In this document: positions 16,154 to 19,505 of the stretch, in pieces
Numbering within the stretch: position 1 is the stretch's first letter
Layout of the letters: the number at the start of each line of letters is the position of its first letter
Source of the DNA: Candidatus Peregrinibacteria bacterium
GTDB lineage: Bacteria > Patescibacteriota > Gracilibacteria > UBA1369
Length of the DNA stretch: 64,000 bases
Direction of reading: 5' to 3'
Assembly: GCA_003153355.1 (NCBI GenBank)
Contig: PLYH01000001.1
Span: 224,565 to 288,564, forward strand
Program-made: the position numbers and the translations under genes
Notes under the pieces: generated by a model
What the model saw: the letters and a program-made list of their open reading frames with translations, nothing else
Told to the model about the DNA's origin: nothing
Databases searched by the model: none

Positions 16154-17053
16154 ATGATGAAAAAAATTTTAGCAGGCGCACTGTTTTTGACGCTCAGCGG
16201 AAGCATTCTTACAGCGTGCAGCGACGTCCAGGCAACAGACCAGCTGATCCATGAAAAGCTCATGGCCCAGTCGAGCCTGCAGACATCGCAAACCCAAACG
16301 CAGCAGGCACAGGAAATTAACGACCAAGAATCGCAGCAAATCAGCGGAGATTTGCCTCCGCAAACCCAAGAAACTCCAGCGCCGAAAGACGCATCAACAA
16401 TCGTTCCGATCATCATGTTTCACTATGTCCGGACCGTTGAAGCGGCAAAAGATCCTTTGGGTTACAATCTTTCCATCGAACCGCAGCAGTTTGAAAAAAT
16501 TCTCCAGTATCTTTCTACGAACGGTTATCACACGATCCACGTTGAAGATATCATCAAAGGATGGGTGCCGCCCAAAAGCATCATTCTTACTTTTGACGAC
16601 GGCTACGAAGATTTTTATACGACCGCGCGTCCCCTGTTGCAAAAATACGGATTTACGGCTTCAGAAGGTATTATCACCGGAAAAATGGACGGCGTTCAGT
16701 ACATGAGTCCTGACCAGGTAAAAGAGATCGACAAAGAAGGCTTTGAAATTCTTTCACACACAGTCCATCACACCGACCTCAACACGGACCCGAATCAAAA
16801 ATCGGAAATTTTCGACAGCAAAGCTTATCTTGAAAAACTTTTGAATAAAACTATTGATACATTGGTATACCCAGCCGGCCGATACGACAACACCACGCTT
16901 GGTTTCACCAAAGATGCCGGCTACAAAGTAGCTCTGACCACAAAACCGGGATACGCCGAATTAAGCGGTGACATGCTTCAGCTGCACCGCATCCGCATCG
17001 ATAACCGCGACGGCTATTTGGGCTTCATCAAAAAACTGAACTTCATTCCTTAG
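16154..17053 (+). CDS. lipoprotein polysaccharide deacetylase (NodB domain)
   Basis: Lipoprotein signal with lipobox LTAC (Cys22), then a Gln/Thr-rich linker (25-75) and a NodB/CE4 domain. Motifs: IIMFHYVR, the Asp pair ILTFDDGYEDF, the metal-binding His pair in LSHTVHHTDL, and VYPAGRYD. It probably removes N-acetyl groups from peptidoglycan or another wall polymer, outside the membrane. The second ATG at 16157 is equally possible. Its end overlaps mutY on the other strand by 4 bases. Confidence 0.85.
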   Translation: MMKKILAGALFLTLSGSILTACSDVQATDQLIHEKLMAQSSLQTSQTQTQQAQEINDQESQQISGDLPPQTQETPAPKDASTIVPIIMFHYVRTVEAAKDPLGYNLSIEPQQFEKILQYLSTNGYHTIHVEDIIKGWVPPKSIILTFDDGYEDFYTTARPLLQKYGFTASEGIITGKMDGVQYMSPDQVKEIDKEGFEILSHTVHHTDLNTDPNQKSEIFDSKAYLEKLLNKTIDTLVYPAGRYDNTTLGFTKDAGYKVALTTKPGYAELSGDMLQLHRIRIDNRDGYLGFIKKLNFIP

Positions 17054-18195
17054 TGGAGGAACATCGCTTTTTTGATTTCAAGAATCTCAATCACCTCTTG
17101 ATTGGCTTCAGGAAATTGATAAGAACGCAGTTCGGATGGATTGACCCAACGGAACTCCTGCTTTTCCAGGGCCTTTACTTCGCCCAACAAAAGCGAACAG
17201 CGGTGAAAACTTAAACGAACTTGAGTGCCTTCATGTTCGGTATCGGTTTTATAAAACGGCGGACGGACGGAAACTTCAATGCCCAGTTCTTCCATAAATT
17301 CACGCTTCAAACACTGACGTTCATCTTCACGCGCTTCAAGTTTTCCGCCGGGAAACTCCCACAAGCCCGCAAGCGGTTTGCCTTTCGGACGTTTGGTAAT
17401 GAGAATTTTTCCGTTATGGATGAGCACGCCAGCTGCAACTTTTATTGAATTTAAATCTCCTGCCAGCTTACCGCTTCGTCTTCTACCGGGCGCATCAACA
17501 CCTTCACCGTCCGCAAAAGCCAGGCCTTGCGCCACACGCGACATTTTGTAAACAGGCGTCTGCTTAAACGAACAAACTTTTTGAAAACAGCACTCTTCAC
17601 ATTTTGGCTGACGTGCATTGCAAATCAAAGCGCCGACGTCCATCAATCCATAGTTAAAATCGCGGCTGCTTAAATCACCGATATATTTTTGCGCGAACGC
17701 AAAACGTTCCTGGGGTTTTAATGTTTTCCACGTTTCGCCGAAAACTCTTTCAAAAATCCTGGAAATATTCGTATCCAATGCCGGAACTTTTTCACCGAAA
17801 GCAAAACTGGCAATGGCTGCGGCCGTGTACGAACCAACGCCAGGAAGTTTTTTTAATTCTTCATAGACCATGGGAAATTTGCCCCTAAAATCTTTCACAA
17901 TCACCTGGGCAGCTTTATGCATGTTCCGAGCACGGCGGTAGTAACCCAGTCCGCGCCAGCACTCGAGCACATCTTCCCAATTCGCTTTCGCCAGATCTTC
18001 AACCTTCGGAAACCGTTTCAAAAACCGCGCATAATACTCCTTCACGCGTTCGACTTGCGTTTGCTGAAGCATGATTTCTGAAACCCAAATTTCATATGGA
18101 TCGTGAGTGCGGCGCCACGGCAAGTCTCGGCGATTACGTTCATACCATGGGTGAAAAATTTTCCGGAACTCCATCGATGAAAGTTTTGATTTCAT
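17050..18195 (-). CDS. mutY: A/G-specific adenine glycosylase MutY with a complete Nudix domain
   Basis: Removes adenine mispaired with 8-oxoguanine. The N-terminal HhH-GPD part has the catalytic Glu40 (VSEIMLQQTQVERV), the helix-hairpin-helix LPGVGSYTAAAI, and Asp141 (PALDTNISRI); the iron-sulfur loop has Cys192, 199, 202 and 208 with the correct 6-2-5 spacing. The C-terminal domain (about 252-381) is MutT-like and keeps a full Nudix box (Gly284 to Ile306, with R298-E299 and E302-E303). In most MutY proteins this domain only reads 8-oxoG and the box is degenerate, so here it may also hydrolyse 8-oxo-dGTP. It lies 2 bases after rarA. Confidence 0.93.
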   Translation of the reverse strand: MKSKLSSMEFRKIFHPWYERNRRDLPWRRTHDPYEIWVSEIMLQQTQVERVKEYYARFLKRFPKVEDLAKANWEDVLECWRGLGYYRRARNMHKAAQVIVKDFRGKFPMVYEELKKLPGVGSYTAAAIASFAFGEKVPALDTNISRIFERVFGETWKTLKPQERFAFAQKYIGDLSSRDFNYGLMDVGALICNARQPKCEECCFQKVCSFKQTPVYKMSRVAQGLAFADGEGVDAPGRRRSGKLAGDLNSIKVAAGVLIHNGKILITKRPKGKPLAGLWEFPGGKLEAREDERQCLKREFMEELGIEVSVRPPFYKTDTEHEGTQVRLSFHRCSLLLGEVKALEKQEFRWVNPSELRSYQFPEANQEVIEILEIKKAMFLH

Positions 18196-18197
18196 GC

Positions 18198-19505
18198 TTA
18201 GCGTTTAAACTGCTCCCGGATCTTTTCCAGTTTTTCTTTGATGCGCGCTTCAATGCCGCGGTCGGTTGGATGATAATAATGTTTGCCCGCGATTTGATCG
18301 GGCAAATGGACCTGCCCCGCAATCCCCTCCTCAAATTTATGAGCGTATTGGTAATCTTTGCCGTAGCCCCATTCTTTCATGAGTTTGGTCGGAGCGTTGC
18401 GGATGTGGAAAGGCACTTCCAGATTCCCGGTCTCACGGATTTCTCTTTGAATCGAACCATATGCGGTATAAGCAGCATTGCTTTTTGGAGCCATGCTTAA
18501 ATAAATCACGCACTGCGCCAGATTCACTCCGCACTCCGGCATGCCGTTAAAATGACAGGCCTGCTGCACCGCAACGGCCTGCTGCAAAGCGTTCGGATCA
18601 GCCATGCCGATATCTTCGGAAGCAAACCTGATTAAACGGCGCGCAATATAAAGCGGATCTTCGCCGCCTTCCAGCATCCGTATCATCCAATAGAGCGCTC
18701 CGTCGGGATCACTGTCACGCATACTTTTGTGGAGCGCGGAAATAATATTGTAATGCTCCTCACCTTTTTTGTCATAACGGAGATTTTTTCTTTGAAGCAC
18801 TTTTTGAATCTCGTCGTGACTGATGGAATCTTTTTTGACGAGTTTGATAATGATTTCAAGAGTATTCAGCAATGAACGCGCGTCGCCATTTGCAAACTGA
18901 ATCAAAAAATTACGACCCTGTTCATCGATTTTCAAAGTTTTTCTTTTCTCAAGTTCGGCAACTTTCGCAGTGGCACGATCCAAAATCGCACCCAGCGCCT
19001 GTTCATCCAAAGCTTTAAAAACAAAAACCTGCGAACGAGAGAGCAAAGCCGAAATAACTTCAAACGAAGGATTTTCAGTGGTCGCACCGATCAAAATAAT
19101 CGTGCCGTCTTCAACATGCGGCAGCAAAGCATCCTGCTGTGATTTACTGAAACGGTGAATTTCATCCACGAACAAAACTGTCCGCTGGTTCATTTTCTTT
19201 CGCTCGCGGGCGCGTTCCACAACTTTGCGCACCTCGGGCACGCCGCCGGTGACCGCGCTCATCGTTTCAAAATCTGCTTTGGTTTCCTGCGCCACGATCA
19301 TGGCCAGGGTGGTTTTGCCCGTACCCGGCGGACCGTAAAAAATCATCGAATGAAGTTTGTCTTCTTTAATCAGTTCGCGCAGCAGCTTCCCGTCGCCTAC
19401 GATATCCTCCTGTCCGAAATACTCTTCCAAAGTTTTCGGACGCAAAAGATGCGCGAGCGGCTGTGACCACAAAGAATCGGATTGTGCTTCAAAAAGTGTA
19501 CTCAT
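18198..19505 (-). CDS. rarA: replication-associated recombination protein RarA (AAA+ ATPase)
   Basis: AAA+ ATPase related to clamp loaders; works at stalled forks. Walker [14 protein letters not shown] (about 57-69), Walker [11 protein letters not shown], sensor-1 [14 protein letters not shown], and the RarA/MgsA C-terminal region ([31 protein letters not shown]). Length 435 aa is normal. It is followed within 2 bases by mutY and preceded by a small zinc-ribbon gene, forming a minus-strand repair group. Confidence 0.95.

Follow-up and report, generated by a model that had tools for sequence, protein, structure and literature searches.

A MutY-like glycosylase core joined to a predicted MutT-type Nudix hydrolase in a Peregrinibacteria genome

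Introduction

An origin of MutY from MutT was reportedly proposed by Noll in 1999. The C-terminal domain of MutY is described as non-catalytic in the known structures (PMC9266487), and adenine glycosylases are said in PMC5389931 to be without conserved Nudix residues. According to PMC10993402, the FSH loop of this domain is the reader of 8-oxoG, and E. coli MutY deprived of the domain can still act on both OG:A and G:A, though its preference is reduced. In our search of the open-licence literature, no paper came up that describes a MutY with an active Nudix domain or a MutY-MutT fusion.

Here we describe a protein that carries intact catalytic sets of both a MutY-type glycosylase and a MutT-type Nudix hydrolase and has no FSH loop. 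On a modest balance of probability, we consider it an adenine glycosylase fused to an active MutT-type hydrolase, an activity predicted from its residues and modelled fold.

Results

The window, by which we mean the whole 64,000-nucleotide stretch of DNA analysed, contains at 17050-18195 on the minus strand an open reading frame with an ATG start that encodes 381 amino acids, exactly at the position given in the original prediction. Pfam matches divide the product into a HhH-GPD region (residues 38-160, 86.2 bits against a cut of 26.2) and a Nudix region at about residues 252-370 (NUDIX_4, 82.5 bits against 35; NUDIX, 64.6 bits against 21.1). The features are as follows.

17050..18195, minus strand: whole gene, MutY-type glycosylase core plus MutT-type Nudix domain (open reading frame list, translation, Pfam and NCBIfam matches)
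17536..18195, minus strand: glycosylase core, residues 1-220, HhH-GPD, with E40, Y123 and D141 in a DTN motif (alignment with G. stearothermophilus MutY, structure match to 5kn9)
17572..17622, minus strand: four Fe-S cysteines, C192, C199, C202 and C208 (sequence)
17452..17520, minus strand: linker, residues 226-248, predicted disordered (pLDDT below 50)
17053..17451, minus strand: MutT-type Nudix domain, residues 249-381 (TIGR00586 score, structure match to 3a6t)
17278..17346, minus strand: intact Nudix box, G284-I306 (exact pattern match, shuffles)
17227..17235, minus strand: site of the MutY FSH loop, here H321-E322-G323 (phmmer alignment with G. stearothermophilus MutY, residue table)
17164..17166, minus strand: E344, aligned with MutT E98 (residue table)
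17101..17103, minus strand: N365, aligned with MutT N119 (residue table)
18198..19505, minus strand: next gene upstream, judged by eye to be a RarA/MgsA-like AAA ATPase (open reading frame coordinates)

The full-length AlphaFold2 model has a mean pLDDT of 88.5, with the core and the domain well predicted and the linker (226-248) below 50; residues 249-381 modelled alone reach 92.7. The stop codon of the RarA/MgsA-like neighbour is followed after 2 bp by the start of the fusion gene (window 18195-18198), an operon-like arrangement in which a fork-maintenance gene, identified by eye, directly precedes the repair fusion.

The glycosylase half retains its catalytic set at E40, Y123, D141 and N143, equivalent to E43, Y126, D144 and N146 of G. 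stearothermophilus MutY when a by-eye offset is applied to the alignment of the two proteins. All four cysteines of the Fe-S pattern are present (C192-x6-C199-x2-C202-x5-C208), and the core model superposes on 5kn9 with Z 28.6 and an rmsd of 1.8 Å over 213 residues. The whole protein scores 263.6 bits with the MutY model TIGR01084, below the curated cut-off of 286.5.

Ten relatives (L005, L007, L009, L010, L012, L013, L160, L175, L176 and L177) share with the window protein the signature VRPxx...HRC...G, and we refer to these 11 proteins as window-type. A quick core tree of 177 columns and 59 rows, for which 34 of the named rows were picked by hand, has a supported branch (98*) that splits 40 canonical MutYs from 19 others, namely ten window-type proteins, two with a decayed box and seven with no Nudix domain. 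All 19 have a DTN or ETN motif; DGN is found in 66 of the 98 proteins examined, and DTN also occurs in one canonical row, L095. The seven cores without a Nudix domain on this side of the tree (L014, L015, L016, L180, L182, L183 and L184) end, by eye, in a winged-helix-like tail. The Fe-S cysteines are kept in the window protein and L176 and are gone from eight of the ten aligned window-type rows; the clusterless relatives L005, L007, L009, L010, L012, L013, L160, L175 and L177 still have the Nudix box and a full glycosylase catalytic set.

In the C-terminal half, residues 284-306 read GKLEAREDERQCLKREFMEELGI, which matches the pattern Gx5Ex7REUxEExGU letter for letter, so the complete Nudix box proposed at Gly284 to Ile306 is borne out; shuffling the window protein produced the strict pattern once in 200,000 trials. 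The MutT likeness extends beyond the box. At positions chosen from E. coli MutT, the equivalents of R23, E34, F35, G37, G38, K39, E44, R52, E53, E56, E57, G59, E98 and N119 are all kept, that is, every compared position outside the 75-78 loop, where F75-P76-D77-R78 is replaced by H-E-G-T. We take N119 to be the 8-oxoG recognition residue of MutT and assign N365 the same presumed role; by the same analogy, metal would presumably be bound by E299, E302 and E303. The residue at the N119 position is N in seven of the 11 window-type proteins and D in four (the four proteins of family f13), and the E98 equivalent is kept in 9 of 11, with A in its place in L007 and L009; among free-standing domains 10 of 15 keep it. 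No box glutamate varies across the ten window-type rows. The box has decayed in two relatives, L011 and L181, with part of the domain, including VRPPH, retained, which is probably a secondary loss inside the same branch.

The original prediction implied that an intact box is exceptional for a MutY, a rarity that turned out to be overstated. Using eight aligned relatives as the query, we scanned named genomes and kept the best 80 of 587, a selection that leans towards proteins like the window protein and gave 80 MutY frames; the same strict pattern is found in 25 of these 80 and a relaxed metal-binding pattern in 42, and an earlier pass over 71 extracted frames had returned the strict box in 21. 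The notion that an intact box makes a MutY unique is ruled out by these counts. Sources of intact-box MutYs among the best 80 of 587 include Cyanobacteria, Chloroflexota, Planctomycetota, Nitrospinota, Aminicenantes, Omnitrophota and Desulfobacter. The E98 equivalent is kept in 12 of the 25 strict-box MutYs and 4 of 17 relaxed ones within the same best 80 of 587.

In all nine cyanobacterial genomes sampled, the MutY domain is itself the top match to the MutT model TIGR00586 (129.9-142.3 bits, cut-off 97.9); other listed matches reach at most 40.3 bits in seven of these genomes, and in the other two no second match passed 1e-9. The cyanobacterial MutY rows (L042, L044, L047, L048, L051, L053, L059, L062 and L063) keep the recognition loop pattern too. 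Across the genomes of the best 80 of 587, a free-standing MutT-model match of at least 60 bits, counted as an open frame below 330 aa with the 60-bit limit picked after the scores were known, was present in 1 of 25 with the strict box and 16 of 55 others (Fisher p 0.016). When the relaxed pattern was used instead, the contrast was 5 of 42 against 12 of 38 (p 0.054, again for the best 80 of 587), and correction for kinship left at most six supported pairs with a median p of 1. Mutual exclusion of the box and a separate MutT was dropped as unproven, being sensitive to definition and unsupported after the kinship correction.

What sets the window-type proteins apart from intact-box MutYs is the recognition loop. 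Aligned with G. stearothermophilus MutY, the window protein has H321-E322-G323 at the FSH site and no FSH loop, and the pattern H-x-[FY]-[STC] occurs in none of the 11 window-type proteins, against 25 of 25 strict-box MutYs and 66 of all 80 in the best 80 of 587. With the loop missing, the protein is better described as a MutT-type domain attached to a MutY-like core than as a MutY whose box survived, and its reading of 8-oxoG in DNA may be weakened or accomplished in another way. Such a loop-less core could still act as a glycosylase, since truncated E. coli MutY retains OG:A and G:A processing in the text cited above.

The protein might instead be an ordinary MutY, with a Nudix-like domain that only recognises 8-oxoG in DNA and a box that is an ancestral remnant without turnover, a reading that we regard as unlikely. 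It would agree with the non-catalytic role given to the domain in PMC9266487 and with the 25 of 80 MutYs (best 80 of 587) in which the box stands alongside the loop, which indicate that a box can coexist with a recognition role. It is at odds with the absence, from 11 of 11 window-type proteins, of the loop that reads 8-oxoG according to PMC10993402, with the invariance of the box glutamates in ten window-type rows though decay is seen in two relatives, and with the closer affinity to MutT described below.

Sequence and modelled fold both place the domain nearer to MutT than to MutY. TIGR00586 gives 91.8 bits with the protein and 94.7 in the genome search, short of its curated cut-off of 97.9. 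The five solved proteins closest in sequence, scoring 69-78 bits (maximum 78.4), are all MutT or hydrolases resembling it, and the best MutY scores 27.6. The domain model matches 3r03 with Z 21.2 at 1.3 Å and the MutT-8-oxo-dGMP complex 3a6t with Z 20.2 and an rmsd of 1.6 Å over 126 residues; the best MutY C-terminal domain listed, 8dvy, gives Z 16.6 at 2.3 Å.

A related possibility, in our judgement distinctly improbable, is that the glycosylase is joined to an active pyrophosphohydrolase with another substrate, such as NudG-like oxidised pyrimidine nucleotides, CTP or (d)NTPs broadly. A NudG-type model reaches 81 bits on the domain, 10.8 below the MutT model; the top model, PRK08999 at 126, is named only as a Nudix hydrolase; a CTP pyrophosphohydrolase and an RNA pyrophosphohydrolase are among the solved relatives; and the 75-78 loop is unlike that of MutT. 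Against these points, E-x-Q at 98-100 and N at the N119 position match E. coli MutT, while NudG has D at 119, and the partnership with a glycosylase of the 8-oxoG pathway suggests an 8-oxoG substrate.

The genome itself was consistent with a MutT role for the fusion. The original prediction had asked for a check for a separate mutT, and none of MutT grade was found by Pfam NUDIX and MutT-model searches of this assembly (1.456 Mb, 7 contigs, 99% complete). The three NUDIX matches are the fusion gene, a 168-aa frame resembling ADP-ribose pyrophosphatase and a 140-aa frame resembling Ap4A hydrolase, the latter two assigned by eye; the MutT model gives 94.7 bits with the fusion and 24.1 and 20.2 with the other two. 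Fpg/MutM is also encoded.

Among 59 kin genomes, this one included, all nine MutT-model matches that score 73-112 bits belong to fused frames of 340-384 aa, and no free-standing MutT-grade gene was found, the best non-fusion match scoring 46.1 bits. Three kin fusions, two of them window-type, exceed the TIGR00586 cut-off of 97.9. Within the order, 10 of 89 genomes carry an intact-box fusion: four in the family of the window, two in f3, where the fusions are of canonical type by loop and tree, and four in f13. Fpg is present in all four fusion genomes of the window's family and absent from the six of f3 and f13; the GO (oxidised guanine) system is therefore split in differing ways. A phylum sample of 379 genomes added window-type proteins from two further families of this class, f17 and f21. 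Genome G132 holds a second copy of a window-type Nudix domain (contig C21:16476-16859, 106 bits) with two in-frame TAA codons, probably a decayed duplicate. Because most of the order is without the fusion and, where sought, without a MutT-grade gene, these bacteria can do without MutT, and a missing separate MutT is by itself no proof of replacement.

Domain trees favour a separate fusion. In a 76-row tree, ten window-type domains group with free-standing MutT/NudG domains and apart from canonical MutY (89/88, 85/92). In a 51-row tree, made by dropping 35 rows (24 weak free-standing, two decayed-box and nine canonical) and adding ten MutT-like ones, they come together in one clade (93/98) within the free-standing domains, and the canonical domains form another (94/95) on the opposite side. 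E. coli MutT falls inside the window-type rows in the larger tree and outside them in the smaller one. Approximately unbiased (AU) tests rejected neither the grouping of window-type domains with canonical MutY domains in a single clade (p 0.194) nor their grouping with E. coli-type MutT (p 0.431).

Given the first of these values, the domain may be an old MutY one whose MutT-like shape was retained or recovered. We think it rather unlikely that, without any new fusion, a canonical domain lost its FSH loop and was reshaped convergently by reuse as a hydrolase; this is a question of origin and is compatible with hydrolase activity. The p of 0.194 and the position of the domain, which is that of MutY's own domain in the chain, speak for such remodelling, and the same p value, in allowing a common origin with canonical domains, also suits the ordinary MutY discussed above. 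The trees, which put the domain among free-standing MutT/NudG proteins, and the existence of same-branch cores without any Nudix domain argue against remodelling. As a tentative account of origin, a working MutT would have been joined, for a second and independent time, to a MutY-like core without a recognition domain of its own, with MutT function travelling only as the fusion.

Discussion

Taken as a fusion of adenine glycosylase and active MutT-type hydrolase, the window protein most likely works like both MutY and MutT. Its N-terminal half would be a MutY-type adenine glycosylase of a divergent DTN branch, excising adenine from mispairs, and its C-terminal half a MutT-type Nudix pyrophosphohydrolase that would convert 8-oxo-dGTP, or an oxidised nucleotide like it, to the monophosphate, using metal held by the three glutamates named above. 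The MutT-type half was most likely taken from a free-standing MutT and not inherited as the MutY recognition domain. Two steps of GO defence, pool cleaning and mispair repair, would thereby reside in one chain. We infer both activities, the substrate and the fusion origin from this combination of residues, models and trees.

The original prediction, that one protein may both excise adenine opposite 8-oxoG and clean 8-oxo-dGTP, holds in part: the MutT residues are kept and the searches of the genome revealed no second gene of MutT grade, whereas the reading of 8-oxoG that it assumed is undercut by the missing FSH loop. Since the loop is absent, TIGR01084 falls below its cut-off and TIGR00586 is narrowly missed, we file the protein neither as a canonical MutY nor as a full MutT.

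These proteins form a natural MutY-like set that has all compared hydrolase residues outside the 75-78 loop but lacks the loop that reads DNA, and beside it stands a larger set in which box and loop occur together. An origin of MutY from MutT thus becomes directly testable: can a single domain serve both functions, and what was the sequence of losses and gains? If the separate fusion is true, it re-enacts the event thought to have made MutY, caught with the hydrolase still active, and the MutYs of cyanobacteria, in which hydrolase and recognition loop would both be retained, would offer a parallel. Activity of the domain would also mean that gene lists are wrong to call MutT missing in cyanobacteria and small-genome bacteria.

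In comparison with known systems, the window protein shares with canonical MutY (E. coli, G. stearothermophilus; TIGR01084) the HhH-GPD core, the E/Y/D residues, the Fe-S cysteines and a C-terminal Nudix fold, with 34% identity to the G. stearothermophilus protein over the chain and the Nudix domain at the same place; it differs in having DTN and not DGN, an intact box, no FSH loop and a TIGR01084 score below the cut-off. Intact-box MutYs of Cyanobacteria, Anaerolineae, Planctomycetota and others have the same complete box but retain the H-x-[FY]-[STC] loop (25 of 25, best 80 of 587), and those placed on the tree have a canonical core. E. coli MutT (compare 3a6t) shares the box, the equivalents of R23, F35, K39, E53, E56, E57, E98 and N119 and the E-x-Q at 98-100, and differs in being free-standing and in its F75-P76-D77-R78 loop, where the window domain has H-E-G-T. 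Finally, the clusterless MutY (MutYX, 8uuc; Z 23.2 against the window model) resembles the eight of ten window-type rows that have lost the Fe-S cysteines, but it is a 275-aa chain that matches the core by sequence, whereas the window protein retains its cysteines and joins its core to a MutT-type domain.
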